Below, one piece after another: positions 13,168 through 43,228 of a DNA stretch of 50,214 bases (positions are counted from its first letter, which is position 1; every line of letters begins with the position of its first letter). Source of the stretch: Verrucomicrobiota bacterium (GTDB taxonomy: Bacteria; Verrucomicrobiota; Verrucomicrobiia; Verrucomicrobiales; Akkermansiaceae); the NCBI GenBank assembly GCA_004294095.1, contig RDZR01000042.1, positions 1 to 50,214 of the forward strand, in the 5' to 3' direction. Position numbers and translations under genes: made by a program. Under the pieces are notes generated by a model that did no database searches, was not told where the DNA came from, and worked only from the letters and a program-made list of their open reading frames with translations.

Positions 13168-13779
13168 CTAAAATTTCTTGCGGCGGCGAAGTAATACGGC
13201 TGTTCCGAGTAAGCCAAGCAGCGCTGCTGATGACGGCTCAGGGATCACCGTGAACGTCGCATTGTAATTTTGGCCGCCACGATTGTTGAAAATTTGAGGG
13301 GACGCGTCTACGTTGTTGGTAATGATGCCGGAGAAAACTGTTAGTGTGTAAGCACCATTGGGCAGTCCAGTGAGGATGTTTGAGGTAAGACCTCCTGTGG
13401 CATCCGAGCCCCAGCGTTGATCACCCCCACCAAGATCTGCTTGGAACGGATAATTTAACACGTTGTTCGTGACCCCCCCGTCGAGTGACCAAAAAAGAGC
13501 GTGCTGTGTCACATCGGTGCCGCCATTTTTGAAGGATTTTTGTTGGCCCGACAAAAATAAGGAACCTCCGACGGTGAATGCACCCAAATTTGCACCTTGG
13601 AACTCAGTGGCACTGAAGAGGTTGGCTGTATCACTATCAATTTCATAAAACGTGGATGTCCCGTAGTCGAATGGAGTGATGGTGGTGACCCAGACTAATT
13701 CGTCAAAGATGCCGGCGGCACCAAATGAAACGCCTGAAGTGAGTAATGCAGATGCTGCGAGTAGGGTTGTTAATTTCAT
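13168..13779 (-). CDS. PEP-CTERM exoprotein, paralogue 2
   Basis: 203 residues with a signal peptide (MKLTTLLAASALLTSGVSFG). The mature part repeats the architecture of its neighbour: AAGIFDELVWVTTITPF, GTSTFYEIDSDTANLF, GQQKSFKNGGTDVTQH, GGQNYNATFTV, then IPEPSSAALLGLLG and LLRRRKKF. The paralogues differ mainly in surface residues. They are separated by about 157 nt, which includes no clear terminator, so each may have its own promoter. The gene begins about 80 nt from a short palindrome at 13852-13869. Confidence 0.85.
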   Translation of the reverse strand: MKLTTLLAASALLTSGVSFGAAGIFDELVWVTTITPFDYGTSTFYEIDSDTANLFSATEFQGANLGAFTVGGSLFLSGQQKSFKNGGTDVTQHALFWSLDGGVTNNVLNYPFQADLGGGDQRWGSDATGGLTSNILTGLPNGAYTLTVFSGIITNNVDASPQIFNNRGGQNYNATFTVIPEPSSAALLGLLGTAVLLRRRKKF

Positions 13780-13851
13780 GATCGATGGATTTTGGGTTTA
13801 ACTCTAACAATTTGGGCTGCATGCATGAATTTGATTTTATCAATTCATAAG

Positions 13852-13869
13852 CACATCTCACAAATGTGA
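13852..13869. promoter_or_regulatory. Short palindrome upstream of PEP-CTERM paralogue 2
   Basis: CACAT, seven bases, ATGTG, with an inner TCACAAATGTGA (13858-13869), lies about 75-90 nt upstream of the ATG at 13779. It resembles a dimeric-regulator site but no matching regulator is evident here. Weak support. Confidence 0.3.
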
Positions 13870-13887
13870 TGAAACCCGCGGTGGTTT

Positions 13888-13908
13888 AGAATTTTATAAA
13901 AAAATTCT
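13888..13908 (-). terminator. AT-rich hairpin after the ExbBD operon
   Basis: AGAATTTT (13888-13895) and AAAATTCT (13901-13908) form an 8-bp stem with a 5-nt loop, 30 nt past the last gene of the ExbBD-toroid operon. The stem has little GC and no clean T-tail, so termination efficiency is doubtful. Confidence 0.3.
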
Positions 13909-13938
13909 TGGTTGCGGCTCCAAAATCAACTTGCCCTC

Positions 13939-15585
13939 TCAAAGCCCATCGATACCCGATCCGCGGTTGCGTCCAGCAGATGTGGGCAAAAAGCGGTAGT
14001 AAACTTGCAAAATTAAGGTGTTGAGAGTTTGCAAATACACGGGGCGCGAGTCGCCCACAAAACGGGTGCCTTCAACGATGTGCAGCAAGGCGCCACCCGT
14101 CGGCTCTGGGCGGAACGAGCCGTCTGGATTTTGCGCGGTTAGAATATCAGCAATGATCGCCGCGTTGGTTTCTTTCCACTCTTTGCCGCCATGGTTACGC
14201 ATCGCTTGCACCATGTAATACCAGGCGTAGAGGTCGTTGTTCGGATCGTCGTAATCCAAAGTATAAAGCAGGCTATAATTTTCTTTATCCGCGCGATTTT
14301 CTGGCGGCTTGGTCCGATAGCTGAGGCCGACCATCATCAATTCCACCGCATCTCGTGCTTCGCGTGAGTTGCCGCGGCCCCACTGCTGGAGACACAACGC
14401 GGCAATGGCAGTCATGCCAGGAGTGGTTATCTCGGGATTATAGCGGAAGCGGCCTTTGCCAGCATTGCCACCGCCGGTGATCCAATCGATGCTTTTGCGT
14501 CCGGCGGCTTCGATTTCTGGGACGCGCACGCCTGCGGCTTTTGCTGCTTTAAGTGCTTGCATGTGCCAGCCCATGATCGAGAGATCTGGCTTGCCCGTGT
14601 TGAGGTATTCATATTCCCAACCGCCCTCGGGAGATTGGGCTTTCAAAATTAGCTCCACAGCGCGGTCCAAGGTGCTTTCCAGTTGCGGGATTTTAAATTG
14701 CAGATTTTTAGAAAATGTCTGCGCCTCAGCCAGCGCGTAAGTGGCAATGGCGTGCTCATAAACCCAGTTTTTTTGGTTAAAATCGTTGGCCATGCGGCCG
14801 TTATTTTTCATTGCGATATCAATCAAAAATGAAATCCCACGAGCGACGTTCTCTCCATACTCAGGCGATTGAGTAGTCTCGCAATGGCCGAGATAGCAAA
14901 GCAATGTGAGCCCCGTCATGGAGATTCGGAACGGCCCGCCCCACGAGCCATCTGGTTGTTGAGAGGTCTTGAGCCATTGCAGGGATTTTTTGATCGCAGC
15001 CTCAATTTCGGGGGTGCCATCCGCATCCTTGAGCATTGAGAGCCGCTCGGAATCGGTGCAGCGGCCTTTCATGATCGTGGGAATCAACGCGCCAATTCCC
15101 AATTGGCCTGCGCCGACGCCTTTGCCCACCCCACTGCCAATTCCAGTGCCCACACCGGTGCCAGTTCCGCCGCCGCTGCCGCCGCCGAGGCCTGCTCCGG
15201 TGGGTGCCATTTCCATTGGCAAGCCAGAGTCCATCATTTCATCGCTTAAATCCGGCAATGCAAAAGAAGCCGTCGTGGAAGTAGAAACGATGCGCTTGTT
15301 GATGCTGCTGGTGCTCATCATGCGCTTGGTTTGCTGCTGATTGATTTTCTGCTGCACCTCGCCGCCGCCACTGCCGCCACCGCCGCCGCCCGGCAAAAAA
15401 TCGACTTTGGGCGTTGGAGGATAGACCCATTGGTAGATGAAAAAGATCGAGACGATGATGAAAATGGAGTGAACTGCGAGGGAAATGGAGAATGCACCCA
15501 AGCCGACGCGTTCGATCCACTCGATCAGCGGATGGCGTTTTTTCGTGCCGAAAGGCAACTGGTTATGGTCGGGAGCTTCACTCAT
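13939..15585 (-). CDS. TonB-like transmembrane helix fused to terpenoid-cyclase-like toroid domain
   Basis: 548 residues, last gene of the ExbBD operon. A short cytoplasmic start is followed by one helix (about 31-53) containing SLAVH, an SxxxH arrangement as in the TonB helix that contacts ExbBD. Next comes a Gly-rich, low-complexity periplasmic linker (about 65-170) with Gln-rich and Gly/Thr repeats. The domain from about 185 to 530 has QW-like motifs of alpha/alpha-toroid proteins (QQPDGSWGG, QSPEGGWEYEY, QNPDGSFRPEP) and ends in TLILQVYYRFLP. It should therefore be inner-membrane anchored with the toroid in the periplasm. A DYDD string near residue 450 recalls the squalene-cyclase acid motif but lies in the wrong place, so catalysis is not implied. 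The role is unknown; probably a force-transducing or binding component. Confidence 0.8.
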   Translation of the reverse strand: MSEAPDHNQLPFGTKKRHPLIEWIERVGLGAFSISLAVHSIFIIVSIFFIYQWVYPPTPKVDFLPGGGGGGSGGGEVQQKINQQQTKRMMSTSSINKRIVSTSTTASFALPDLSDEMMDSGLPMEMAPTGAGLGGGSGGGTGTGVGTGIGSGVGKGVGAGQLGIGALIPTIMKGRCTDSERLSMLKDADGTPEIEAAIKKSLQWLKTSQQPDGSWGGPFRISMTGLTLLCYLGHCETTQSPEYGENVARGISFLIDIAMKNNGRMANDFNQKNWVYEHAIATYALAEAQTFSKNLQFKIPQLESTLDRAVELILKAQSPEGGWEYEYLNTGKPDLSIMGWHMQALKAAKAAGVRVPEIEAAGRKSIDWITGGGNAGKGRFRYNPEITTPGMTAIAALCLQQWGRGNSREARDAVELMMVGLSYRTKPPENRADKENYSLLYTLDYDDPNNDLYAWYYMVQAMRNHGGKEWKETNAAIIADILTAQNPDGSFRPEPTGGALLHIVEGTRFVGDSRPVYLQTLNTLILQVYYRFLPTSAGRNRGSGIDGL

Positions 15586-15616
15586 GAGATTGGGGTTTGG
15601 TGCACGTCTTCATCCA

Positions 15617-16069
15617 TTACTGGGCAGGCACCTCGAAGGTGACGTTTTGGATTTGGGCCGTCGAAAGGCTATTGAGCACGTTGATCACACGTTGATACGG
15701 CGCGTATTCATCGGCGATGATGGTCACCACCACTTTGCTGTCCGCCGCCCGCGATGATTGGGCGAGCAAAATCAGTGTGCGCGTGAGTTGCTCAAGTTGG
15801 GTATCGCCGCTATCGCCCATCGGATCGTCATTGAGCAGGACTTCACCCGTTTCCAAAACCCGAATTTGTGTGTCTTCAAATGACTCAACCGGGCCATCCG
15901 CCGCGATCATTCCGGGCAATTTTAAATTCAATTCATTCTCCACCTGAACCGATGCCGCCATGACCATGAAGAACAACATGATCACGAACACCACGTCGAT
16001 CATGGGCGCGATTTGAAAGCCCATATGAATGTAGGCTGGTTCTTGGCGGCCGCGTTTTTTGCGTTTCAT
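15617..16069 (-). CDS. exbD: ExbD/TolR-family protein
   Basis: 150 residues with one membrane helix and a periplasmic domain. The basic start MKRKKRGRQEP leads into IAPMIDVVFVIMLFFMV, holding the conserved membrane Asp used for proton movement. The periplasmic half (about 50-150) ends NVTFEVPAQ. It is one of two ExbD-type genes in the operon, the upstream one being only 13 nt away. Together with ExbB it would form the proton-driven stator that powers the TonB-like fusion 31 nt downstream. Divergence between the two ExbD copies suggests a heterodimer rather than redundancy; this is inference. Confidence 0.88.
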   Translation of the reverse strand: MKRKKRGRQEPAYIHMGFQIAPMIDVVFVIMLFFMVMAASVQVENELNLKLPGMIAADGPVESFEDTQIRVLETGEVLLNDDPMGDSGDTQLEQLTRTLILLAQSSRAADSKVVVTIIADEYAPYQRVINVLNSLSTAQIQNVTFEVPAQ

Positions 16070-21555: not shown

Positions 21556-23850
21556 TCACGGGGAAAGAACGGCTCGATAGAATGCTTTTCCGGGAGGAGG
21601 GGATGCATCGGTGAAAGAAAGCCGCCCGTCTGCTGCGACCGTGCTAGCGGCGACTTGCGTCCAATTGAGGAGATTGGTGCTGCGTTGGATTTTCAGCGAC
21701 TTACCGGGGCGATTGTAAAATACGACAACGGGATTCGAGTTGCTAGCAATCGAGATTTCCGCCGCTCTGGCTCCGATGGGTTTATCGAAATTACTAAAAA
21801 CATAGCTGGCTCCGGTATTGTCTTCTGAATTGTCGTTTTGATTCGCCAAAGTATCGTTGATGGTTCGGCTCCCACTGTCCTCAAAGGGCGCTCCCACAAT
21901 CCCAGTGGTTCCCGAAACGGCGACCGAGGTGCCAAACTGATCACCAAAGCCCGTGTTGCTTGCCTTCAGATATGAACCTTGAGTGCAGAAAGCGTCATTG
22001 CAAGTGAATGAATAAACCGCACCTGCACTGGTAAGACCAGCATCACTCTGATCGCCACCCACTCCAGTGGCCGCGCCGCGCTCTGCTGAGGAACTTACGA
22101 GCAGGATTCCATTGGATAGAGCCACCGCGGAACCGAATCCAAAGGTGCGATTACTGGCTTTAAGATAATCCAATGGTGCCCAAGATCCACCGTTGTAAAC
22201 GAAGACATACGCCGCTCCAGACTCAAGAGCCAAGTTGTTTGCACCGCTTCCCCCGACTCCCGTTGCATTGCTATCATCGCCAATCGCAGTTACAGCGATC
22301 AAATCTCCCGAGACAGCTACGGCGTAGCCGAATTGATCCTGCGCCTCGGTGTTACTCGCTTTTAAGTAGGCTTCCTGGGTCCATGTTCGATTGTTTCGCC
22401 TGAAAACGTAGGCCGCGCCCGAAGAGAGCGCTTCATCATCGGCAGGGTCTCCCGAGGTGTTGAGTCCACTGCCATCTTCAAATCTTGCTCCGACTACGAT
22501 GACATTGTTCCAAATGGCCACCGAGCAGCCGAAATTATCCGATGTTTCCGCATTGCTGGCCTTCAAATAGGCTTCTTGAGTCCATGTGCCGACCGTTCTT
22601 GAAAAGACGTAAGCAGCCCCGGAGGCCGTGGCAGAGTCATTGGTTCCGTCACCGTTGATGGCGGTGGTATTGCTGTCTTCATCCGCCGCACCGACGACGA
22701 TGGTATTGCCTGATATCGCAACGGTTAAACCAAAAAGATCTGCCCTTCCCGGATTGCTTGCTTTCAGATAAGCCTGCTGGCTCCATGTGCTACCCACTCG
22801 GGTAAATACATAGGCGGCGCCTGAGGATCCGATGTTGTTGTTGGTTCCGTCGCCATTGACTCCGGCCGAGCCACTGCCCTCTTGCGGAGCACCGACCACG
22901 ACCGTGTCACCTTCAATCGCCACTGAGGAACCAAAGATATCATTGATGTCGGCATTGTCGGCTTTGAGAATAGCCTGCTGTGACCAACTAGCGCCATTCC
23001 TGACGAAGATATACGCGGCTCCAGAGCCACTCCGCAGTTCATCGCTGGGACCATTGACGATTCTTGACGAGCTATCTTCCTGAGGTGCTCCCACAATCGC
23101 ATAGTTTCCAGAGATGGATACAGACGTGCCAAATTTATCTTCAGAACCAGAATTGCTCGCTTTTAAATATGCCTGCTGGGCAACGGGATCAATCGTGATG
23201 GGATAGCGAGCATTCGCCTCATCCACCGACAGTCGGATGGTATTTTCAGAAATTCCTTCGAAGCTGGAATGAAGCATTTTACCATCAGCATCCCAGACTT
23301 TTAGTCCGCTGTAGTCGATTTTTCGGCTATTATTTTCATCGTAAAAATGAACTCCCAACGAATCGCTTGCAATCACTGCCTTCAAGTTACCCACTGTCTT
23401 CATCGTGAATTGCAGCTTCGATGAGCGCCCATTTTTCTGCGGTGGCTCGGAAATGATGAATCCATGCTCGAGGCCCCTGCGATCATTGATGAACCATTCT
23501 TGTAAAGAGGAGCTCCATTGATAAGTCAGGCGTTGGCCATCTGTCTGAATGGTCGCAGTGCCTGTCACATTGACTTCGGAGCCAGCAAAACCATAGCTTT
23601 GGAGCTGCAAGCCCCACGTCCAGCTTTGGCCAAGCGGTGAAGTGACAAAGCTCTGTCCATCGAAGTGAGCGGTCCATTGCTGTTCCAGATTCTTGGCTTG
23701 CCATCCCGCATCGGTATTTTGGAAAGCGTGGATACTCGAATCATAAGCCTCGCGGAGACTTTTGAGGTCTTGGTGCTTCTTGGCAGTATTTGCGAGCACA
23801 CTGCCGGTAATCAAGAGAGTCCCTAGCGCGATTTTTGTGTAGATTTTCAT
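21556..23850 (-). CDS. FG-GAP seven-repeat (beta-propeller) exoprotein
   Basis: 764 residues. Signal peptide to about VLANTAKK. The N-terminal domain (about 60-225) contains EWFINDRRGLEHGF and ends YPITIDPVA; a homologous domain opens the 25940-28186 protein. Seven FG-GAP-type units of about 60-67 residues follow (about 228-690), with the recurring pattern YLKASN...D.FG.SVA.SG...VGAP.ED and ...GAAYVF.R. Seven units fit a closed seven-bladed propeller as in integrin alpha chains. The C-terminal beta domain (IQRSTNLLNWTQV...FYRAVLSP) resembles secretion or surface domains frequent in verrucomicrobia. No PEP-CTERM tail. It follows the PEP-CTERM gene by 39 nt and is probably under the operator at 24575. 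Confidence 0.82.
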   Translation of the reverse strand: MKIYTKIALGTLLITGSVLANTAKKHQDLKSLREAYDSSIHAFQNTDAGWQAKNLEQQWTAHFDGQSFVTSPLGQSWTWGLQLQSYGFAGSEVNVTGTATIQTDGQRLTYQWSSSLQEWFINDRRGLEHGFIISEPPQKNGRSSKLQFTMKTVGNLKAVIASDSLGVHFYDENNSRKIDYSGLKVWDADGKMLHSSFEGISENTIRLSVDEANARYPITIDPVAQQAYLKASNSGSEDKFGTSVSISGNYAIVGAPQEDSSSRIVNGPSDELRSGSGAAYIFVRNGASWSQQAILKADNADINDIFGSSVAIEGDTVVVGAPQEGSGSAGVNGDGTNNNIGSSGAAYVFTRVGSTWSQQAYLKASNPGRADLFGLTVAISGNTIVVGAADEDSNTTAINGDGTNDSATASGAAYVFSRTVGTWTQEAYLKASNAETSDNFGCSVAIWNNVIVVGARFEDGSGLNTSGDPADDEALSSGAAYVFRRNNRTWTQEAYLKASNTEAQDQFGYAVAVSGDLIAVTAIGDDSNATGVGGSGANNLALESGAAYVFVYNGGSWAPLDYLKASNRTFGFGSAVALSNGILLVSSSAERGAATGVGGDQSDAGLTSAGAVYSFTCNDAFCTQGSYLKASNTGFGDQFGTSVAVSGTTGIVGAPFEDSGSRTINDTLANQNDNSEDNTGASYVFSNFDKPIGARAAEISIASNSNPVVVFYNRPGKSLKIQRSTNLLNWTQVAASTVAADGRLSFTDASPPPGKAFYRAVLSP

Positions 23851-25939: not shown

Positions 25940-28186
25940 ATGAAAATTCCATTCAACGCCCGTATTTTTGCTTTTCTCGCCGCTTGTTTGCTCGTGGGAA
26001 TCGGGGTCTGCTGCTGGTTGGCTCGGACGCCACTTGTGGCTGGCCAACGAGTCACTGAGAATCTCGCGCTTGGCTCCACTAGCATCCGAGAGACTCCGCA
26101 GCTAATAATGGGGCAACAAAAAATAACCGCTGAGCAAAGTGGGGTAGCCGATCAAAACTCGTTTGAATTTCACCATCATCGCCCAGCAACGGCAAATTCG
26201 TTCACCGCTGAGAATGCCCCCTATGGCTTAGAAATCTTGTTTGACCATCATGGGATGACGCTCCGTCCCAACAATCCAGCAATCCCTGAGGAAGACAAAT
26301 GGTCTTTTTCCATGATTCAGATCGCCCCACCCAGCGTCCCAAGCCAAACCTCGCCAGAAACAATTTCCTACGAGAGCAAACCAGGCCACACCGAGTGGTT
26401 CATCAATTCCGAAAAAGGAATCGAACATGGGATGAATTTGGCAAGCCCGCCATCATCCATGAGCGAGCCACTGAAGTTTAATTTCAAAGTCAGCTCGAAT
26501 CTCCGGTGCGAAGGTGGATCTGAAAACAATCTTGTTTTCAAAGATGAAAAAGGAGCACCCACGCTGCGTTATGAAAAGCTCATCGCCTATGATGCCAAAG
26601 GAAAAATCATCCCCACCGCACTCACTTGGGATGATACGACATCCACCATCGCGTGGCAGGTGGATCATCAGGGCTTTGATTACCCGATTGTGATTGATCC
26701 CATCATTGCCACTTTTGCCCAGACGCTCACTCCACCCAGCACCATCATCGGCTCTTTTGGCGAGGCCATCGCCATCGTTGGGGACTTCATGGCAGTCGGC
26801 ACTCCTTCGAGCAATCGAGTTTATTTATATGAGAAAAGTGGCGGGACGTGGACTTTGTTCAGCCGGAAAAATTTCCTCGTCTCCCCCGCAACCAATGGTG
26901 GGGCATTCGGCACCCAAGTTCTCATGCCAAATCTGGACACCATCATTGTTTCCGATACCTCCTTCGATGCCCCGACCTCCACTGGCGGCACCAATACCAA
27001 TCAAGGCGCGATTTTCGCCTTCGGCAGAAACATCGGTGGCGATAACAACTGGGGCTTAATCAAGCAGTTCACCCTCACCGAGCCACTCCTACCAAGCGGA
27101 AAGCTGGCGGACCGCCTAGGAACCGTCATGTCCCTATCAGGAAATTTCCTTGCCGCATCCGCCATACCGGATTCAGACAGCTACGATACCGCCATCAAAT
27201 CAGTTTATCTTTTTGAAAAAGACCGCGGTGGGCTTGATAACTGGGGTCAGGTGCCCGGAGTTAGAATTCATAGCTCGGACTTCAGTAGCGGCTTCAGCTA
27301 TGCAAGATCTTTCAGTCTTTTTGGGGATTTGCTCGTCGTCGGATCTCAGGCTGAGAGTTTCACACAGGCCCCAGGCTCGCCCACCATTCAATTTCAAGGT
27401 GCCGTCTATCTCTATGGAAAAAACCAAGGCGGAGCCAACCAATGGGGCTTGCTTCCCAATGGCAGGCGCTATGCACCCGATGGTGCGTTTGGCGACTTTT
27501 TTGGCCGCTCGGTCAGCGGCTCAGGTGATTTCATCGCCGTCGGCGCCGATGGAGTGGACCTTTCTGCCAGCCAAGGAGGCGCTGGTGCAGTCTATCTGCT
27601 TTCCAGAAATCAAGGTGGTTCGGGCGCTTGGGGATTTTTACCAGGCCGCCTCACCGCGGCAGATGCGGCTGCGTCTGATGCCTTTGGTGCCTTCGTTCAA
27701 TTAGCCGGAAACGTCCTGGCGGTGCGAGCCTCCAGCGATGATGTAGCGGGCACGAACGACGCTGGTTCCGTTTACTTATTCGATCGCGATCAGGGCGGAA
27801 CGAACGCATTTGGCGCCGTGGCCAATGGAAAATTCTCGATCGATAACGTTTCCAGCATTATCAAAGTCAAAAGCCCGCTATTCCTCTCTGAAAATCACTT
27901 GGCATTTGCGACCAGTCCAAGTGTTGGAAATTCTTCAGTCAGCATCATCAACCTCTCAGCGAGCACGGGCACCGGCGAGGGACTTGGCCAACTCACCTTC
28001 GCTCGCGATGGACTGGCCACTTTTGTCCCGCGAGCCGCCGGAACTTACCAACTCCGAACAAGCATCAACCTACAGACATGGGCAGACTTAGGAGCGCCAC
28101 AAACTGGAGCTGCCAGCGCCAATCTTATTTTCAATACCGGCACGCCTGGAAGCGAACCACGCCGCTTTTATCGGATCGAAAGATAA
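25940..28186 (+). CDS. FG-GAP-type propeller exoprotein, second family member
   Basis: 748 residues. A membrane or signal segment (FAFLAACLLVGIGVCCWLA) is followed by the N-terminal domain shared with the 21556-23850 protein (TEWFINSEKGIEHGM ... YPIVIDPII). A propeller region of irregular FG-GAP-like units (about 255-640) then has recurring GNFLAASAIP, GDLLVVGSQ, GDFIAVGADG and VYLF.KDRGG/NQGG turns. The C-terminal beta domain (GTYQLRTSINLQTWADL ... RRFYRIER) corresponds to that of its relative. No PEP-CTERM tail or Cys lipobox is clear. It is a surface or secreted binding protein by architecture; ligand unknown. Operator site 3 lies just upstream. Confidence 0.8.
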   Translation: MKIPFNARIFAFLAACLLVGIGVCCWLARTPLVAGQRVTENLALGSTSIRETPQLIMGQQKITAEQSGVADQNSFEFHHHRPATANSFTAENAPYGLEILFDHHGMTLRPNNPAIPEEDKWSFSMIQIAPPSVPSQTSPETISYESKPGHTEWFINSEKGIEHGMNLASPPSSMSEPLKFNFKVSSNLRCEGGSENNLVFKDEKGAPTLRYEKLIAYDAKGKIIPTALTWDDTTSTIAWQVDHQGFDYPIVIDPIIATFAQTLTPPSTIIGSFGEAIAIVGDFMAVGTPSSNRVYLYEKSGGTWTLFSRKNFLVSPATNGGAFGTQVLMPNLDTIIVSDTSFDAPTSTGGTNTNQGAIFAFGRNIGGDNNWGLIKQFTLTEPLLPSGKLADRLGTVMSLSGNFLAASAIPDSDSYDTAIKSVYLFEKDRGGLDNWGQVPGVRIHSSDFSSGFSYARSFSLFGDLLVVGSQAESFTQAPGSPTIQFQGAVYLYGKNQGGANQWGLLPNGRRYAPDGAFGDFFGRSVSGSGDFIAVGADGVDLSASQGGAGAVYLLSRNQGGSGAWGFLPGRLTAADAAASDAFGAFVQLAGNVLAVRASSDDVAGTNDAGSVYLFDRDQGGTNAFGAVANGKFSIDNVSSIIKVKSPLFLSENHLAFATSPSVGNSSVSIINLSASTGTGEGLGQLTFARDGLATFVPRAAGTYQLRTSINLQTWADLGAPQTGAASANLIFNTGTPGSEPRRFYRIER

Positions 28187-35775: not shown

Positions 35776-37116
35776 TTAGAAGCTATCGGTATTCTTGCCG
35801 TGGCGATTTGCGCCGGGGATCCAGTCCGTGCCAGCGAGGGGGACTTTTGCCATAGCGGCAGCTTCGATGGTGAGGGCGGCGAGATCGTCTGGATCGAGAT
35901 TATGGACGTGGGACTTTCCGCAGGCGCGGGCGAGCGTCTGAGTCTCAAGCGTGAGCACGCGTAGGTAGTTGGCGAGTTTTCTGCCGCCGATGATGGGATC
36001 TAAGCGGGCGGCAAGTTCAGGATTTTGGGTGGAAATTCCGGCGGGATCTTTGCCATCTTGGTAGTCATCAAAAAATCCGGCGGAGCTGCCGAGTTTTTCA
36101 TAGTCCTGTTGGTATTTCGGGCTGTTGCACCCGAGAGCGATCAGGGCGGCCGTGCCAATGGAAACGGCGTCTGCACCCATGGCAAGCGCCTTGGCGACAT
36201 CGGCCCCGCTGCGAATGCCGCCAGAGACAATCAGCTGCACTTGGCGATGCATTCCCATTTCTTGAAGAGCCTCGACGGCTTGGCGTAGCGCGGAAAGCGT
36301 CGGAATGCCGACGTGCTCGATAAAGACGTCTTGAGTGGCACCGGTGCCGCCTTGCATGCCATCGAGCACGATGACGTCGGCACCGGATTTTACCGCAAGC
36401 TTGACATCGTAGTAGGGACGAGAGGCACCGATTTTGACAAAAATGGGCTTTTCCCAATCGGTGATTTCGCGGAGCTCTTCGATTTTGATGGCGAGGTCAT
36501 CCGGGCCAGTCCAGTCGGGGTGGCGGCAGGCGCTGCGTTGGTCGATGCCTTTGGGAAGGGTGCGCATTTCGGCCACTCGGTCGCTGATTTTTTGGCCTAA
36601 CAACATACCGCCACCGCCGGGTTTGGCACCCTGCCCGAGCACCACTTCGATGGCATCGGCGCGGCGTAGGTCATTGGGATTCATGCCATAGCGGGAAGGT
36701 AAATATTGGTAAACGAGTAGATTTGAGTGCTCGCGTTCTTCCGATGTCATGCCGCCATCACCGGTGGTGGTGGTGGTGCCGACCTCACTGGCGCCGCGCC
36801 CTAGTGCTTCTTTGGCCTGAGCGGAAAGCGCACCAAAGCTCATGCCGGCGATGGTGATGGGAATCTTTAAAACCAATGGTTTGGAGGCGAACCGGCTTCC
36901 CAGCACCACCTCGGTGGAACATTTTTCGCGGTAGCCCTCGAGCGGGTAGCGCGACATGCTGGCACCGAGGAAAACGAGGTCGTCGAAGTGCGGCATCCAG
37001 CGCTTGGATCCCCAACCGCGGATGTCGTAGATGCCCTCGTCCGCAGCACGCTGGATTTCGTGGATGACGGAGCGATTAAAGAGGTAGGATTCGCGAAGGT
37101 GCGCAGGTGGATTCAT
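35776..37116 (-). CDS. mgsC: FMN-binding glutamate-synthase-like subunit (GlxD/MgsC type)
   Basis: 446 residues matching the FMN synthase domain of glutamate synthases: IPITIAGMSFGALSAQAKEA, GTTTTTGDGGMTSEEREHSN, SRYGMNPNDLRRADAIEV, GQGAKPGGGGMLLGQKI, IFVKIGASRPYYDVKLAVKS, GADVIVLDGMQGGTGATQDV and SGGIRSGADVAKALAMGADA. The Cys-rich [3Fe-4S] loop of GltB is replaced by a cysteine-poor stretch after IALGC (DPAGISTQNPELAARLDP closes it), as in GlxD/MgsC-type proteins as I recall them. This subunit with the two preceding ones would make glutamate or N-methylglutamate from a glutamine or gamma-glutamylmethylamide donor. Last gene of a three-gene unit. Confidence 0.85.
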   Translation of the reverse strand: MNPPAHLRESYLFNRSVIHEIQRAADEGIYDIRGWGSKRWMPHFDDLVFLGASMSRYPLEGYREKCSTEVVLGSRFASKPLVLKIPITIAGMSFGALSAQAKEALGRGASEVGTTTTTGDGGMTSEEREHSNLLVYQYLPSRYGMNPNDLRRADAIEVVLGQGAKPGGGGMLLGQKISDRVAEMRTLPKGIDQRSACRHPDWTGPDDLAIKIEELREITDWEKPIFVKIGASRPYYDVKLAVKSGADVIVLDGMQGGTGATQDVFIEHVGIPTLSALRQAVEALQEMGMHRQVQLIVSGGIRSGADVAKALAMGADAVSIGTAALIALGCNSPKYQQDYEKLGSSAGFFDDYQDGKDPAGISTQNPELAARLDPIIGGRKLANYLRVLTLETQTLARACGKSHVHNLDPDDLAALTIEAAAMAKVPLAGTDWIPGANRHGKNTDSF

Positions 37117-37125
37117 GCTGAAAAA

Positions 37126-37797
37126 CTAGTAGTGCGAGACGTTGTCCCGCTGGAAATTGTAGAGTTTACGACTGGATCCATAGCGGCGGAACTCGCTCGG
37201 ATCAGCGTCGGCACCGGACTGGCGCAACAGCTCGGCAAGCGCGGTGAGATGTTCACTGCGCATTTCTTTTTCCACGCAGTCGGTTCCGAGGCTTGCAACT
37301 TTCCCACGCACGAACAGCCGTGCTTCGTAGAGAGAATCGCCGAGTGCATCGCCTGCATCACCCAGCACGACGAGATCGCCTGCTTGGCCCATGAATGCAC
37401 TCATGTGGCCGACGGAACCTTTCACCACAATGTTGATGCCTTTCATCGAGATGCCGCATCGGGCCGATGCATCGCCATCGATGATCAGTAAGCCGCCATG
37501 GGCGGTCGCACCTGCGGATTGGCTGGCGTGACCATGCACATGCACTCGTCCAGACATCATGTTTTCAGCGACGCCGGTAGCGACATTGCCTTTCACAATG
37601 ACGGTGGCTTCTTGGTTCATCCCCGCGCAGTAGTAGCCAGCGTGGCCCACAATTTCCACATAGAGAGGCGCATTGAGACCAACGGCTAGCGCGTGGGCAC
37701 CGCGGGGATTTTTAACATACCACGAGCCAGCCGAGGCGGTGTGAAGCTCACGATTGAGTTCACGCACAGTAGAGTTTTCTAAATCGATCGTCGTCAT
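37126..37797 (-). CDS. mgsB: GXGXG-domain glutamate-synthase-like subunit (GlxC/MgsB type)
   Basis: 223 residues, a right-handed beta-helix equivalent to the C-terminal domain of GltB. Repeating strands show GHAGYYCAGMNQEATVIVKG, NVATGVAENMMSGRVHVHG, ASQSAGATAHGGLLIIDGDA, SARCGISMKGINIVVKGSVG and AFMGQAGDLVVLGDAGDALG. It is a structural part of the synthase linking the amidotransferase and FMN subunits. Its ATG overlaps the end of the amidotransferase gene by 4 nt, and the FMN subunit follows 9 nt later, so all three are tightly coupled. Confidence 0.85.
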   Translation of the reverse strand: MTTIDLENSTVRELNRELHTASAGSWYVKNPRGAHALAVGLNAPLYVEIVGHAGYYCAGMNQEATVIVKGNVATGVAENMMSGRVHVHGHASQSAGATAHGGLLIIDGDASARCGISMKGINIVVKGSVGHMSAFMGQAGDLVVLGDAGDALGDSLYEARLFVRGKVASLGTDCVEKEMRSEHLTALAELLRQSGADADPSEFRRYGSSRKLYNFQRDNVSHY

Positions 37798-38693
37798 GAA
37801 TGGCTCCAGTTATAAACTACGGCTGGCTCAGGCTCCCATAGGCGGGCGTGCTCGATGCCAGGCAAGCTTGTCAATGCGCGATACTCCGAGGCCATCGCCA
37901 CGTAATCATCCGTCTCCGCAAGCACGGCAGGCTTGCAAGCGATCGGATCGCGCAGCACCGCAAATCCCGAGGCCGTGCCAACGGCAAAGGTATAAAAACC
38001 ATCCAGATCACGGAGACTTGCTTCCAGCGCTGCTTGTAACGAAAAACCATGTTGCAGGCGGTTCGCGAGGTATCCCGCTGCGACTTCAGTATCGTTCTCA
38101 GTGGAAAAAACGATGCCCTCCCGCTGGAGATTGGTGCGCAAGCGGCTGTGGTTGCTCAACGAACCATTGTGCACAAGACATAGGTCTGAGCCGGTCGAAA
38201 AAGGATGCGAACCCGCCGTGGTGACCGCGCTTTCCGTGGCCATGCGAGTGTGAGCAATTGCGTGTGAGCCGCGCATTCCTGAGACTCCAAACCTTGCGAT
38301 CACCTCGGCGGGCGTGCCCGTTTCTTTCATGATCTGGATGCGCTTACCCATGCTCATGATCGCGACCTTGGGCGCGATTTCCCGCAAAATCACCCGGATC
38401 GCAGACTCTTCTCCTGCCACGAAAAACAACGCATGAGTGGAATTTACCGAATATTGCACCTTGCCTTTGATCCGCGTCTCTAGTTCGTCGGCAAGCTTTG
38501 CCCAATCGTAAGCAAGGTCGTCGTGCTGAAGTGAGATTTTCACCACTCCGGCGGGTGAAATTCCGTCATAGATCGCCAAGCCAGCGCTGTCAGGGCCACG
38601 CCCACACATCGAGTCTAACATGGGCGCGAGCAATGCGCCCAAGTCAGGTTCAAGCTTCTTGTTTTTCAAAAAAAGACCAACGATTCCGCACAT
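37794..38693 (-). CDS. mgsA: Class II glutamine amidotransferase subunit (GlxB/MgsA type)
   Basis: 299 residues starting MCGIVGLFLKNKKLEP, so the Ntn nucleophile Cys2 is present after Met removal. Other marks are GRGPDSAGLAIY, RGSHAIAHTRMATESAVTTA, GSHPFSTGSDLCLVHNGSLS (the HNG motif) and FSTENDTEVAAGYLANRL. It releases ammonia or an amine from an amide donor and channels it to the FMN subunit. First gene of the three-gene unit; its 5' region (38694-39102) is shared with the divergent synthetase gene. A sigma-54-like element lies 253-268 nt upstream. Confidence 0.87.
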   Translation of the reverse strand: MCGIVGLFLKNKKLEPDLGALLAPMLDSMCGRGPDSAGLAIYDGISPAGVVKISLQHDDLAYDWAKLADELETRIKGKVQYSVNSTHALFFVAGEESAIRVILREIAPKVAIMSMGKRIQIMKETGTPAEVIARFGVSGMRGSHAIAHTRMATESAVTTAGSHPFSTGSDLCLVHNGSLSNHSRLRTNLQREGIVFSTENDTEVAAGYLANRLQHGFSLQAALEASLRDLDGFYTFAVGTASGFAVLRDPIACKPAVLAETDDYVAMASEYRALTSLPGIEHARLWEPEPAVVYNWSHS

Positions 38694-38913
38694 GATTGTT
38701 TTTTTCTTAAGTGATGGTTCGAGCCAGCTCGGAAAATTGCAAATTTTAATTCTTCAAACGTTTAAACGTCGGCCAATTTGCCAAAGTGCGTGCTTTTTCG
38801 ACGCGAAAAATTTATCGTTCAGATCGCCTGTCGCCGAACTTGCTTTGATGGGCAGATTCACGTGGATGTGTTTGATGATGAAACTGTTGTGAATTAAAAA
38901 ACTGATTTTGAGG

Positions 38914-38938
38914 GCATGGATTGTTCTCACATCCATGC
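38914..38938. repeat. Perfect inverted repeat in divergent promoter region
   Basis: GCATGGAT (38914-38921) and ATCCATGC (38931-38938) form a perfect 8-bp inverted repeat with a 9-nt spacer, lying about where transcription from the minus-strand sigma-54-like element would start. It could be an operator or a 5'-end RNA hairpin. The remainder of 38694-39102 contains no gene I can support. Confidence 0.55.
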
Positions 38939-38945
38939 TTAAAAG

Positions 38946-38961
38946 CGCACTTTTTGTGCCA
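38946..38961 (-). promoter_or_regulatory. Sigma-54-like -24/-12 promoter toward the glutamate-synthase-like genes
   Basis: On the minus strand TGGCACAAAAAGTGCG has the required GG-N10-GC spacing and an almost full TGGCAC -24 element. It faces the mgsA-like gene. No activator-binding site was recognised. Confidence 0.5.
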
Positions 38962-38979
38962 TGATGAAATCAAAATGAG

Positions 38980-38995
38980 TGGCACTTAAAATGGC
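38980..38995 (+). promoter_or_regulatory. Sigma-54-like element toward the glnT-like operon (imperfect)
   Basis: TGGCACTTAAAATGGC carries a perfect -24 TGGCAC, 108-123 nt upstream of ATG 39103, but the -12 GC is one base too far (GG-N11-GC), or reads GG at the proper distance. With the minus-strand element it forms back-to-back TGGCAC motifs 18 nt apart. Weaker than the minus-strand one. Confidence 0.35.
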
Positions 38996-39102
38996 CCGTC
39001 AACTGCTTAAACCATTCTTCAAGAAAACCATGCAGCCCAGTTGAATCCCTGCAAATTTTTTCTAGCAAATTTTATCAACATGCCGATTCAACGTTTGTTA
39101 AA

Positions 39103-40464
39103 ATGACAACAATTTCAGAAATTCAAGACAAGATGGCAGCGGCGGGGATAGATTTTGTGCTCGCGCAATTCGTCGATATTCATGGTGCCGCCAAAGTAAA
39201 AATGTGTCCGGCGAGTTACCTCCAGACACTCGTCGATGAGGGCGCGGGCTTCGCTGGGGCCGCCGTCTGGGGCATGGGCCAAGGGCCACATTCGCACGAC
39301 ATGCTCGCCCGGATCGACCTTGAGAGTTACACCCCCATTCCATGGCAGACGAATACCGCACGCTTCGCCAGCGATCTCTACGTAGATGGCAACGCGCATG
39401 GTTGCTGCCCGCGGGTGAACTTGAAGCGGGTTTTGGGGATTTTAAAATCACGCCATGGCCTGGTGGCAAACATCGGCATCGAGCCTGAGCATTTTCTCGT
39501 GGTCCGCACACCCGAAGGAGGCATCGCGGTGTGGGATCCACAGGGCATCGATCAACTCTCCAAGCCCTGCTATGACTACAAGGGCATCGCTCCCGCAATG
39601 GACTACCTGCAAGACATCACCACCTACTGCAACGGACTTGGCTGGGGCGTCTATCAAGCCGACCATGAAGACGGCAACGGCCAGTATGAAATTAATTTCA
39701 ACTACGCCGATGCCCTCACCACCTCCGATCGATTGACATTTTTCAAAATGATGACCAATCAAGTGGCCCAAAAGTATGGTGCCATCGCCACGCACATGGC
39801 CAAGCCATTCAGCGACCGCACCGGCAGTGGTGCGCATATTCACTACCATCTTGCGGATGCGACGACGGGTGAAAATGTATTTACCGACGAGGCGGATCCA
39901 GCGGGATTTGGTCTTTCCAAGATAGCCTACCACTTTCTGGCAGGTGTCTTGAAACATGCACCTGCGCTCTGCGCCATCGGCTCACCAACGCCCAATTGCT
40001 ACCGCCGCCTGCAGATCGGGCCCGGCCTAACAAGTTCCCGCTCGGGCTTCACTTGGACACCTGCTTTCATCAGCTATGGCGATAACAATCGCACGCAAAT
40101 GCTGCGGATCTGCGGGCCCGGGCATGTGGAAGACCGCTCCATCTCAGCAGCGGTCAATCCTTACTTAATCCTCGCCGCCTACATCGCTGCTGGGCTGGAT
40201 GGCATCGCCAAGGAGCTGCCAATACCCAATCCCAACCTCGGAAATCTCTACACCATGGCTCGCTCAGAGATCTACAAGCGCGGGCTGACCACCCTGCCTC
40301 AATCGCTGCGCGATGCCTTAATCGAGCTTGAGCAGGATCCGGTGATCCTCGATGCGCTAGGCCCAATTTCCGGAGAATTTATGAAAGTGAAATGGCGCGA
40401 GTGGAATGAATACCACCGCCAAGTCTCACGCTGGGAAACCGACCAATATCTAACACTCTTCTAG
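39103..40464 (+). CDS. glnT: GlnT/GMAS-like glutamine synthetase family ligase
   Basis: 453 residues with a short N-terminal beta-grasp part (VDIHGAAKVKMCPASYLQTL) and the catalytic barrel: GIEPEHFLVV, YQADHEDGNGQYEINF (metal-binding Glu), THMAKPFSDRTGSGAHIHYH (ATP/His site), NCYRRL and a modified substrate loop (RSISAAVNPYLILAA). The proteins of this branch are GlnT (type III GS) and gamma-glutamylmethylamide synthetase; sequence alone does not say whether ammonia, methylamine or another amine is used. It is divergent from the GlxBCD/MgsABC-like genes, the arrangement known from both rhizobia and methylamine users. First gene of a three-gene operon with the oxidase and M20 peptidase. Confidence 0.85.
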   Translation: MTTISEIQDKMAAAGIDFVLAQFVDIHGAAKVKMCPASYLQTLVDEGAGFAGAAVWGMGQGPHSHDMLARIDLESYTPIPWQTNTARFASDLYVDGNAHGCCPRVNLKRVLGILKSRHGLVANIGIEPEHFLVVRTPEGGIAVWDPQGIDQLSKPCYDYKGIAPAMDYLQDITTYCNGLGWGVYQADHEDGNGQYEINFNYADALTTSDRLTFFKMMTNQVAQKYGAIATHMAKPFSDRTGSGAHIHYHLADATTGENVFTDEADPAGFGLSKIAYHFLAGVLKHAPALCAIGSPTPNCYRRLQIGPGLTSSRSGFTWTPAFISYGDNNRTQMLRICGPGHVEDRSISAAVNPYLILAAYIAAGLDGIAKELPIPNPNLGNLYTMARSEIYKRGLTTLPQSLRDALIELEQDPVILDALGPISGEFMKVKWREWNEYHRQVSRWETDQYLTLF

Positions 40465-40479
40465 TAGCAGCACCGGACG

Positions 40480-41622
40480 ATGAGAACATTCGACGTGGCC
40501 GTGATCGGCGTGGGCGGCATGGGCAGTGCGGCGTGCTACCACTTATCAAAGGCGGGCCTGAGTGTGCTCGGCGTGGATCAATTTTCGATTCCTAACACCC
40601 GCGGAAGTTCACATGGCTCCACCCGAATTTTACGTCTCGGCTTGCATGAAAGCACCAAATACGTGCCACTTGTGCAGCGCGCCGCCCAGCTCTGGGACGA
40701 GCTTGGCGAGCAATGCGGACAGACCATTTTTCATCGCATCGGCAGTCTCGATGTTTCACTTCCAGACAAGGCGATCTTCAGTGGATCGCTCAGCGCCTGC
40801 GAGCGCTGCGACATCGCCCACGAAGTGTTAGATCGAGCGGAAATTCGCAAGCGCCACCCCGCGCTTATGCCGGAACCTAACATGATGGCTGTCTTCCAAC
40901 CCGGCTCGGGCTTCGTCGCCCCAGAAATGGCAATCTCAGCACACGTCAATCTCGCCATCGCAGCAGGCGCGGAAATTCATGGCCATGAGCGGATGCTCGG
41001 CTGGACGAGTGACGCAGGGGGTTATCTAGTAACAACCACTCACGGGCAATACCGCACACGTCACTTGATCATCACGGCGGGCGCGTGGATTGGCAAAGTT
41101 CTTGCTGCGGCGGCGGTGCCCGTGCAAGCCGAACGATGCGTGCTTGGCTGGTTTTCAACCGGCCCGAACTCGGCAATCTTTTCGGATAAAAAGCTACCAG
41201 TTTGGATCGTCGATTCCGAAGAACTTGGCCATTTCTACGGCTTTCCCGCCCACGGCATCCCCGGCTTCAAGCTCGGTCGCTTGCGTGAAATTCCCTCCCC
41301 CGCCATCGATCCCGACATCCCCCGGCGTGAGGCCGATCGCGAGGATGAGGACGATATGAGGAGCTTTGTGCGAGAGATTTTTCCCGGTGCCAATGGCCCA
41401 GTGTTATCCATGGAAACCTGTTTTTTTGAAAACACACCAGACCGCAGCCCGATCATCGATCGCATCCCAGGTGAGGCTTCGGCATGGGTCGTTGGCGGCT
41501 TCAGCGGGCATGGATTTAAATATTCAAGCGCCGTGGGCGAGATCGCTCGTGACTTGATCTTGCGCGGGGAATGCAACTTTGATCTCACGCCATTTCGCCT
41601 CTCACGATTTTCTAACCCATGA
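40480..41622 (+). CDS. solA: Monomeric sarcosine oxidase / N-methyl-amino-acid oxidase-like flavoenzyme
   Basis: 380 residues, the length of MSOX/SolA. FAD-binding VIGVGGMGSAACYHLSKAG and an acidic VDQF end of strand 2; NTRGSSHGSTRILRLG and YVPLVQRAAQLWDELG of the family; FYGFPAHGIPGFKLG with the Lys that activates O2 in MSOX; METCFFENTPDRSPIIDR with the Cys that binds FAD covalently; VVGGFSGHGFKYSSAVGEIA at the end. All signature residues are kept, so it should oxidise an N-methyl or secondary amino acid to amino acid, formaldehyde and H2O2. Its position 15 nt after the glnT-like gene suggests a glutamyl or N-methylglutamate substrate; this is inference. Confidence 0.82.
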   Translation: MRTFDVAVIGVGGMGSAACYHLSKAGLSVLGVDQFSIPNTRGSSHGSTRILRLGLHESTKYVPLVQRAAQLWDELGEQCGQTIFHRIGSLDVSLPDKAIFSGSLSACERCDIAHEVLDRAEIRKRHPALMPEPNMMAVFQPGSGFVAPEMAISAHVNLAIAAGAEIHGHERMLGWTSDAGGYLVTTTHGQYRTRHLIITAGAWIGKVLAAAAVPVQAERCVLGWFSTGPNSAIFSDKKLPVWIVDSEELGHFYGFPAHGIPGFKLGRLREIPSPAIDPDIPRREADREDEDDMRSFVREIFPGANGPVLSMETCFFENTPDRSPIIDRIPGEASAWVVGGFSGHGFKYSSAVGEIARDLILRGECNFDLTPFRLSRFSNP

Positions 41623-43001
41623 GCCTCTCGACAGATGAATTGGCAGTCTATTTCGACTACCTGCGCTTTCCATCAATCAGCGCCGCGCCCGCCCACCAGC
41701 AAGATTGCCGCGATTGCGCGAACTGGCTGGTCGAGCTTCTCGCAAAATGGGGGCTGGCCAGCGCCCTGCATGAGACCGACGGCCATCCGATCGTGCTCGC
41801 TCATACGGCGAGAGAATCTAGCAAACAGACCCTGCTCATCTACGGACACTACGACGTGCAGCCAGTCGAGCCGCTCGCTCTTTGGGAAACGCCACCGTTC
41901 GAGCCAAGCCTGCGCGAAGGCCTTGTGCATGCTCGCGGCGCGACCGATAACAAAGGACAAACCGCTGCGCTTCTCATCGGTCTGCGGCGCCTGCTTGGGC
42001 GGGGCCCACTGCCCGTCAATCTAGTGATTTTCATCGAAGGAGGCGAAGAAATCGGCAGTCCGTATCTCGCGGATTTCATCAGCACGCACCGTCCACAAAT
42101 CGCTTGCGATGGCGTGCTTGTATGCGACACCAGTCTTGTCACCGCTGGTTGGCCCGCGATCACACTCGGGCTGCGAGGCATCGTGTGCTTGGAAATCCTC
42201 ATCCACGGTCCGGCGAAAGATCTGCACTCCGGAATCTTTGGTGGAGCCACTGCCAATCCCGCGCAAGCGCTCTCCCGAATACTTGCTCGCGCCACCGACG
42301 CCGACGGCCGCATCACCATCCCCGGACTCTACGATGACGTTTTGCCAGTCTCTAACAAAGAGCTAATTTCATGGCAAGTGCTGCCGTGGACCGCGGAATG
42401 GTTCACCGCTACCACCCGCTGCTCGGCACCTACGGGTGAGCAAAACTATAGTTTACTCGAGCGCGTCTGGGCGCGCCCGACCTTCGAGATCAATGGTCTT
42501 ACAAGTGGCCACCAAGGCAGCGGCTCAAAGACGATCATCCCGGCGACGGCGTTGGCCAAAATCAGCCTGCGCCTCGTCCCTAACCAAGATCCCGATGTGA
42601 TCGCGGCCCTCGTCGCAACTTGGCTCAACCAACAAATCGCCGCCGAGGGATTCGTGGGTGAGGTCACCATTGACCACGGCGGCTATCCATTTTTCACACC
42701 ACCTGAAAACCCACTGGTCCACGCAGCGGAAATCGCCCTCACCCAGACGTTTGGTCGCGCTCCCGCCTTCACTCGCGAAGGCATCAGCATCCCCATCGCC
42801 TCGCTGCTCCAGCGCGAAATGAAAGTGCCCATCATCCTCGCGGGCCTAGGCCTTGCCGATTGCAATGCCCACTCACCGAATGAATCCTTTCCCATCTCCC
42901 ACCTCGAACTGGGCGCTCAGTTTTTGGAAAACTACGTGGCCCAACTCGGATCCTCGGCGGCACCCAGCCACACCACCTCCCCGAACGAATTGCACAGTTG
43001 A
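41619..43001 (+). CDS. M20-family metallopeptidase (CNDP-type dipeptidase)
   Basis: 460 residues. Metal site TLLIYGHYDVQPVEP, LVHARGATDNKGQTAALLIG, FIEGGEEIGSPYL (catalytic Glu), GVLVCDTSL; dimerisation domain with GPAKDLHSGIFGGATANPAQ; and a late His in DCNAHSPNE. Fits M20 dipeptidases that cleave dipeptides or isopeptide-like amides. Its ATG overlaps the oxidase stop by 4 nt (ATGA), so it is coupled to the glnT-solA genes. A role in splitting gamma-glutamyl or other amide intermediates is plausible but not shown. Cytoplasmic; no signal peptide. Confidence 0.85.
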   Translation: MSLSTDELAVYFDYLRFPSISAAPAHQQDCRDCANWLVELLAKWGLASALHETDGHPIVLAHTARESSKQTLLIYGHYDVQPVEPLALWETPPFEPSLREGLVHARGATDNKGQTAALLIGLRRLLGRGPLPVNLVIFIEGGEEIGSPYLADFISTHRPQIACDGVLVCDTSLVTAGWPAITLGLRGIVCLEILIHGPAKDLHSGIFGGATANPAQALSRILARATDADGRITIPGLYDDVLPVSNKELISWQVLPWTAEWFTATTRCSAPTGEQNYSLLERVWARPTFEINGLTSGHQGSGSKTIIPATALAKISLRLVPNQDPDVIAALVATWLNQQIAAEGFVGEVTIDHGGYPFFTPPENPLVHAAEIALTQTFGRAPAFTREGISIPIASLLQREMKVPIILAGLGLADCNAHSPNESFPISHLELGAQFLENYVAQLGSSAAPSHTTSPNELHS

Positions 43002-43151: not shown

Positions 43152-43228
43152 TGGTCGGGCTGGCGGGATTCGAACCCACGACCCCTTGCCCCCCAGGCAA
43201 GTGCGCTACCAGACTGCGCTACAGCCCG
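43152..43228 (-). tRNA. tRNA-Pro (anticodon GGG)
   Basis: On the minus strand CGGGCTG pairs with CAGCCCG in the acceptor stem; the D-arm region is TAGCGCAGTCTGGTAGCGCA, the anticodon arm CTTGC-CTGGGGG-GCAAG gives GGG at positions 34-36, the T-arm is GTGGGTTCGAATCCCGC. Discriminator A and an encoded CCA (43152-43154) end the gene. It lies between the M20 and argC genes on the opposite strand. Confidence 0.96.

Follow-up and report, generated by a model that had tools for sequence, protein, structure and literature searches.

Here, we describe a six-gene cluster in a stretch of 50,214 nucleotides (the window) from an Akkermansiaceae genome of 3.0 Mb that comprises 113 contigs and is an estimated 97% complete. 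We infer, with a probability of roughly two in three, that this cluster encodes a variant of the N-methylglutamate pathway whose last enzyme is an O2-dependent N-methylglutamate oxidase, with substrates and activity predicted from sequence. In the first step, a GmaS-type ligase would attach methylamine, or some other small primary amine, to glutamate at its gamma-carboxyl group at the expense of ATP, as its family and active site suggest. A three-subunit synthase, judging from its close relatives, would then move the amine onto 2-oxoglutarate to yield N-methylglutamate and glutamate. Finally, a single-chain FAD oxidase would use O2 and water to convert N-methylglutamate to glutamate, formaldehyde and H2O2 without folate coupling; this assignment draws on conserved linkage, on the modules that fill the same slot in other genomes and on intact catalytic residues. 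The net effect would be release of methylamine nitrogen as glutamate, probably serving as a nitrogen source.

Like the indirect methylamine pathway (GmaS, MgsABC, MgdABCD), the window combines a clustered ligase with all three synthase subunits, but it differs in having a single MSOX-type oxidase for the multi-subunit dehydrogenase, plus an M20 peptidase. A preliminary description of this DNA had proposed just such a replacement of MgdABCD, with the peptidase recovering glutamate from amides. The replacement is well supported by comparison with a verrucomicrobial cluster (L074), four mgd-bearing Proteobacteria and other single-chain clusters, whereas nothing beyond co-location was found for the suggested role of the peptidase.

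A ligase of the glutamate-methylamine type

The window ligase scores above the cutoff of TIGR03105, the type III (GlnT) family, and is of GmaS type by its closest structural relatives: its best solved match is the glutamate-methylamine ligase 9qur (398.7 bits), followed by Rhodovulum GmaS (RhGmaS; 7cql, 306.9 bits), with glutamine synthetase structures trailing at 235.8 bits or less. In GmaS, deprotonation of methylamine is ascribed to Asp177, with Glu186 acting as second base, and both these residues and Arg312 are reported to be strictly conserved (PMC7948447). The window ligase has equivalents of all three, and those of Asp177 and Glu186 are kept in 19 of 19 cluster ligases compared. The same study gives Km values of RhGmaS of 27 µM for methylamine, 58 µM for ethylamine and 8.7 mM for ammonium (PMC7948447). 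Given this broad amine range, methylamine is the favoured, but not the sole possible, substrate of the window ligase.

At the position where glutamine synthetase has the motif FDGSS (as in 7tdp), the window ligase reads FAGAA. The Asp and Ser residues of FDGSS bind ammonia in glutamine synthetase, and the motif is present in a glutamine synthetase-family gene on contig C105 of the same genome. Outside the cluster, this genome holds two genes of that family and two Glu_synthase-domain frames of 1567 and 1431 amino acids (contigs C9 and C109), the size of glutamate synthase large subunits; the cluster is therefore not needed for ammonia.

The Puu putrescine route, composed of PuuA, PuuB, PuuC and PuuD, has a PuuD-type hydrolase that is an amidotransferase. 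The window likewise pairs a glutamine synthetase-like ligase with a DAO-family oxidase and a hydrolase, but it differs in its three-subunit synthase, its M20-type hydrolase and its ligase, which lies far below the cutoff of the gamma-glutamylputrescine synthetase family (197.6 bits versus 650). On this ligase score, the Puu route was rejected.

A synthase shared with dehydrogenase-carrying loci

All three subunits of an MgsABC-like synthase (GATase-II, GXGXG and Glu_synthase) are encoded in one window operon, and the GATase-like subunit retains its N-terminal Cys2. Four of the loci compared carry mgd, with sarcosine-oxidase-type subunit genes in the stretch: Acinetobacter L061, Acidithiobacillus caldus L062, Sphingobium L080 and Rhizobium L082. 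The annotation of L062 lacks a gamma subunit, and in L061 a transposase, a regulator and an ammonium transporter intervene; L062, L080 and L082 additionally have purU and folD, which form the outlet via folate in the classical route. The window FMN subunit is 79%, 70%, 79% and 76% identical to its counterparts in L061, L062, L080 and L082, respectively, and the three subunits taken together range from 58 to 79% identity to L061, L080 and L082 and from 49 to 70% to L062. Of the 18 other loci compared, 17 have a GXGXG subunit sharing 41–74% identity with that of the window, the exception being L011, which is truncated. At 1e-80, the FMN subunit matches 243 plasmid records with best identities all at 60–80%; for the best 60 of these 243, identities are 76–80%.

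A single-chain oxidase probably replacing the dehydrogenase

Is the classical dehydrogenase encoded elsewhere? A genome check for mgdABCD, suggested in the preliminary description, came out negative: tblastn returned no match to MgdA, B, C or D at 1e-5 in the 50-kb window, and a search of the whole genome for SoxD (PF04267) found none while both controls (L061 and L062) were positive, with a missed copy possible at ~97% completeness. As tblastn is weak on small subunits, having missed the annotated delta and gamma subunits of L061, it is chiefly the large alpha subunit by which mgd is judged absent at other loci.

The gene directly following the ligase encodes an MSOX/SolA-type protein, scoring above the cutoff of NF008425, the N-methyl-L-tryptophan oxidase family. 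Its predicted model (mean pLDDT 89.8, from a 15-row alignment) has its best fold matches in MSOX (TMq 0.90–0.93) and MTOX (TMq 0.89–0.90); for the solved chains listed of these two enzymes, sequence identity is 34–37%. Arg52, Tyr254, Lys265, Cys315 and Lys348 of MSOX are kept as R52, Y253, K264, C314 and K347, which we take to serve the same functions in the window oxidase; the titles of PDB entries name Lys265, His269 and Tyr254 of MSOX. The Cys for covalent FAD attachment (Cys314, 41419-41421) and the Lys for O2 activation (Lys264, 41269-41271) are thus kept, as the preliminary description had noted.

A scan of genome contigs with the window oxidase yielded 52 loci, seven of which also hold the ligase and, within contig reach, synthase genes; linkage in 7 of 52 loci indicates an association beyond chance. 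The remaining 45 have no ligase within the DNA examined, which is short for some. L007, L008, L009 and L010 contain all six genes in the arrangement of the window, and L011, which starts inside the GATase gene, has the rest of it. In L025 (Akkermansiaceae) and L026 (Actinobacteria), all genes lie on one strand and the orders differ from that of the window. Genes in these loci were called by codon-usage scoring, with the GXGXG gene of L008 and the oxidase gene of L025, both missed in this way, placed by tblastn. In L007 (4077-4649, the copy scanned) and L008–L010, the synthase operon is faced by a regulator that combines helix-turn-helix and cupin domains; none was seen beside the window cluster.

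The oxidase tree has 66 rows (L033 was dropped for a stop and repeat-gene loci were left out; rows L065_u and L078_u duplicate labelled rows and inflate the label-change count). Therein, the oxidases of the window, L007–L011, L025 and L026 form one clade (support 100/99), and all eight loci are cluster-linked; the clade spans nine rows because the window oxidase is included a second time as an unlabelled copy. Its members belong to Verrucomicrobiota, apart from a single actinobacterium and L011, a contig that bears the label Betaproteobacteria, yet the L011 oxidase groups with that of verrucomicrobial L010, so the contig may be mis-binned (or the gene transferred).

All eight linked-clade oxidases keep the equivalents of Cys315, Lys265, Arg52 and Lys348, and at MSOX positions 55, 317 and 323 they uniformly carry Leu, Phe and Arg, respectively; Arg at 323 occurs in just one of 53 rows outside the clade (L028). 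His269 of MSOX is absent from all eight (Arg, Leu or Met instead, with the alignment gapped at this site), but it is not universal in the MSOX family, being also missing in 12 Bacillota rows, L072 and L056. Compared with MSOX/SolA, the window oxidase therefore shares the fold, the FAD-linking Cys, the O2-activating Lys and the Arg52 and Lys348 equivalents, but differs in Arg at 323, the lack of His269, Leu55, Phe317 and the linkage to GmaS and Mgs genes. In the crystallised S320R mutant of a T. roseum oxidase (7exs), Arg likewise occupies the aligned TPD-x-HF position, which is likely the mutated residue itself, assuming a numbering offset of five. The extra Arg of the linked clade would presumably sit in the pocket.

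How widespread is the system? Among 387 Verrucomicrobiota genomes, the synthase subunit was detected in four (the window's own, G364, G039 and G392) and an oxidase of the window's family at 1e-40 in ten, including all four of these; in G392, the oxidase lies on a different contig from the synthase. A close oxidase is restricted to the window's own genome and G364, cluster-linked in both, and the next best reaches 36% identity. Of 36 further genomes sampled from the same genus, only G014 has an oxidase at 1e-40, in two copies of 33–35% identity.

What fills the third slot elsewhere

Besides the window clade, three oxidase lineages follow the ligase–synthase set (L072, L078 and L079), long branches leaving their exact places in the tree unsure. 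The L072 cluster (G039) is close to the window in ligase (74%) and FMN subunit (88%), but its oxidase shares just 33% identity with that of the window and takes a different place in the tree. A single-chain FAD oxidoreductase comes after the operon glnT-GATase-glxC-glxD both in Streptomyces L078 (364 amino acids) and in Ca. Mycobacterium methanotrophicum L079 (396 amino acids). At 24–25% identity, these enzymes are not close kin of the window oxidase, and that of L079 falls on the MgdA side of the tree. Within 23 kb at both loci, no match to SoxD, SoxA or SoxG was obtained in a search that is weak for small subunits.

L074 (G392, verrucomicrobial) resembles the window in synthase and ligase (78% identity in the FMN subunit, 64% in the ligase) and in having the oxidising module directly after the ligase. 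That module is of the heterotetramer type: SoxB, SoxD and a SoxA shortened to its first third (320 amino acids) come after the ligase at 13231-15700, with no SoxG match found. This is possibly a dehydrogenase without its folate half.

The Burkholderiales plasmids L060 (4334-10326) and L096 (1745-7358) have two single-chain DAO oxidases, a pair with 72% identity, in the vicinity of the glnT-glxBCD operon and not directly inside it; in L060, genes for HutD and an N-formylglutamate deformylase stand beside them.

In FastTree trees of the ligase and of the FMN subunit, oxidase-linked and mgd-linked loci are interleaved, as is expected if the third module is exchanged on a common ligase–synthase core. 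The four-part dehydrogenase seems to have been swapped for a single oxidase several times in unrelated bacteria.

The M20 peptidase

The M20 peptidase model (pLDDT 76.8, from a 6-row alignment) matches the CN2/DUG1 fold. His77, Asp110, Glu143/Glu144, Asp170 and His418, presumably metal and catalytic residues, are invariant in the six window-type clusters (window and L007–L011), in all of which the gene stands directly after the oxidase gene or after a GNAT gene. This GNAT acetyltransferase gene lies between oxidase and peptidase in L010 (10156-10596, the copy scanned) and L011 (3144-3584). In L026, an M20 gene is located upstream and belongs to another subfamily (ArgE/DapE-like). The window peptidase has no match in loci L025, L072, L074, L078 and L079, suggesting it to be accessory rather than part of the system's core.

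Gene map and genomic setting

All six open reading frames of the preliminary description were recovered at the positions claimed, with the synthase genes divergent from the ligase (Table 1) and the peptidase gene coupled to that of the oxidase, the two overlapping by 4 bp.

Table 1. Features of the cluster, with positions counted from the first letter of the window.
Feature	Position	Strand	Basis
FMN-binding glutamate-synthase-like subunit (MgsC/GlxD type), 446 aa	35776-37116	(-)	Pfam Glu_synthase, 313.6 bits
GXGXG subunit (MgsB/GlxC type), 223 aa	37126-37797	(-)	Pfam GXGXG, 46.4 bits (cutoff 32.5)
Class-II glutamine-amidotransferase-like subunit (MgsA/GlxB type), 299 aa	37794-38693	(-)	Pfam GATase_6, 67.9 bits; MCGIVG start
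Divergent intergenic region, synthase versus ligase operon	38694-39102		Sequence; putative promoters
GmaS/GlnT-type ligase, 453 aa	39103-40464	(+)	TIGR03105, 515.7 bits (cutoff 469.6)
MSOX/SolA-type FAD oxidase, candidate N-methylglutamate oxidase, 380 aa	40480-41622	(+)	NF008425, 416.4 bits (cutoff 257)
M20 metallopeptidase (CN2/DUG1 dipeptidase type), 460 aa	41619-43001	(+)	Pfam Peptidase_M20

To the left, the cluster is flanked by pyruvate-dehydrogenase-type E1/E2 genes and a Rex-like regulator and, to the right, by tRNA-Pro and then argC-argJ. The tRNA-Pro(ggg) gene (43152-43228) adjoins argC, a pairing kept in nine of ten congener stretches. Upstream of tRNA-Pro, no match to the cluster or to the pyruvate dehydrogenase and Rex genes was seen in those stretches (0.8–11 kb each), and the region bordering tRNA-Pro may be a variable block. 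We also considered the cluster as an island integrated at tRNA-Pro; integration is not demonstrated, as no tRNA copy of at least 12 bp occurs elsewhere in the window. GC content at third codon positions is 0.61–0.67 in cluster genes versus 0.54–0.62 in 12 other window genes, overlapping at the upper end of the latter, which is weak evidence for a foreign origin of the cluster. Further left, two large FG-GAP_2 repeat proteins are encoded at 21556-23850 and 25940-28186.

Discussion

What could the cluster do other than oxidise N-methylglutamate? The same three steps might serve another primary amine (ethylamine, ethanolamine or an amino-acid-derived one), with the oxidase cleaving an N-alkylglutamate to glutamate and the matching aldehyde. 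To this we assign a small yet appreciable likelihood: the Km of RhGmaS for ethylamine is about twice that for methylamine (PMC7948447), the pocket is changed in cluster-linked oxidases, and the neighbours of the window cluster include no recognised gene for handling formaldehyde. Against it speak the FMN subunit, 70–79% identical to those of mgd-carrying loci, and one oxidase-type cluster (L078) in which the gene after the oxidase is annotated as S-(hydroxymethyl)mycothiol dehydrogenase. Enzymes of this name detoxify formaldehyde, so this neighbour would fit with formaldehyde as the product.

An unlikely alternative is salvage, wherein the M20 peptidase would free N-methylated amino acids, the oxidase demethylate them, and ligase and synthase re-assimilate the nitrogen. 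The overlap of the peptidase and oxidase genes, the dipeptidase type of the former and the naming of the oxidase family after an N-methyl amino acid would suit such a scheme, but the window peptidase lacks a match in five loci that do have ligase, synthase, and oxidase or dehydrogenase, and the M20 enzyme of L026 is from another subfamily. Least probable is plain ammonia assimilation, the alternative raised in the preliminary description: a GlnT/GlxBCD glutamine synthetase–glutamate synthase pair with an N-methyl amino acid oxidase and a peptidase as unrelated neighbours would agree with the database name of the ligase family (glutamate-ammonia ligase) and with the glutamate synthase domain of the FMN subunit, but is disfavoured by the lack of FDGSS, by the other glutamine synthetase-family genes and two large Glu_synthase-domain frames in the genome, and by the repeated linkage of oxidases to the same gene set across phyla.

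Several observations weigh against an N-methylglutamate oxidase as the final enzyme. No member has known activity, the oxidase family is broad and carries the NCBIfam name N-methyltryptophan oxidase, and the ligase could accept another amine. Of the residues shared by the linked clade, Leu55 occurs in five rows outside it and Phe317 in 17, and loss of His269 is likewise not confined to it. In plasmid clusters L059, L081, L097 and L098, both mgd and an MSOX-like oxidase are absent from the stretch examined (a partial alpha-subunit match in L059 lands on an aminomethyltransferase gene), so ligase and synthase can stand without either module nearby. The formaldehyde-linked gene of L078 adjoins an oxidase of a different subfamily. 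As to formaldehyde-oxidation genes, which the preliminary description had proposed to look for, the outcome was mostly negative: neither class-III alcohol dehydrogenase (13 of 14 control genomes match, three above cutoff) nor formate-tetrahydrofolate ligase (four of 14 match, three above cutoff) was found in the window genome, and its PurU matches all stay below cutoff. No formaldehyde sink was thus found in the genome, with Fae, FdhA, FolD, formate dehydrogenase and catalase not searched for.

A bolder version of the N-methylglutamate oxidase proposal seems doubtful at present: a folate-free, O2-dependent pathway whose final enzyme would have been recruited independently at least three times from single-chain DAO-family oxidases, with window oxidase and M20 peptidase working as a pair, for example via N-formylglutamate. 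In this version, the oxidase would make N-formylglutamate from N-methylglutamate, and the peptidase would hydrolyse it to formate and glutamate. If true, the pairing would avoid free formaldehyde in a genome that yielded none of the small number of formaldehyde-route genes looked for.

Where does this leave the N-methylglutamate pathway as currently described? In the sections of three articles accessible to us, MgdABCD, or soxBDAG in SAR11, is named as the oxidising enzyme, and the monomeric sarcosine oxidase of SAR11 adjoins aminomethyltransferase and betaine-transport genes (PMC5023230, PMC3160333, PMC8262859). In the accessible parts of the open-licence literature, we found no precedent for a one-chain oxidase in this pathway, subscription papers being outside that scope. 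gmaS, according to the available text of the RhGmaS study, is used as a marker of methylamine use (PMC7948447). If an N-methylglutamate oxidase does complete the window's pathway, surveys that require mgdABCD would miss methylamine users among Verrucomicrobiota and Actinobacteria. The energy and C1 outcome would differ as well, with H2O2 and free formaldehyde arising instead of the methylene-tetrahydrofolate of the folate-linked MgdABCD, and N-methyl-L-tryptophan oxidase would be the wrong label for a clade that can be defined by its sequence signature.

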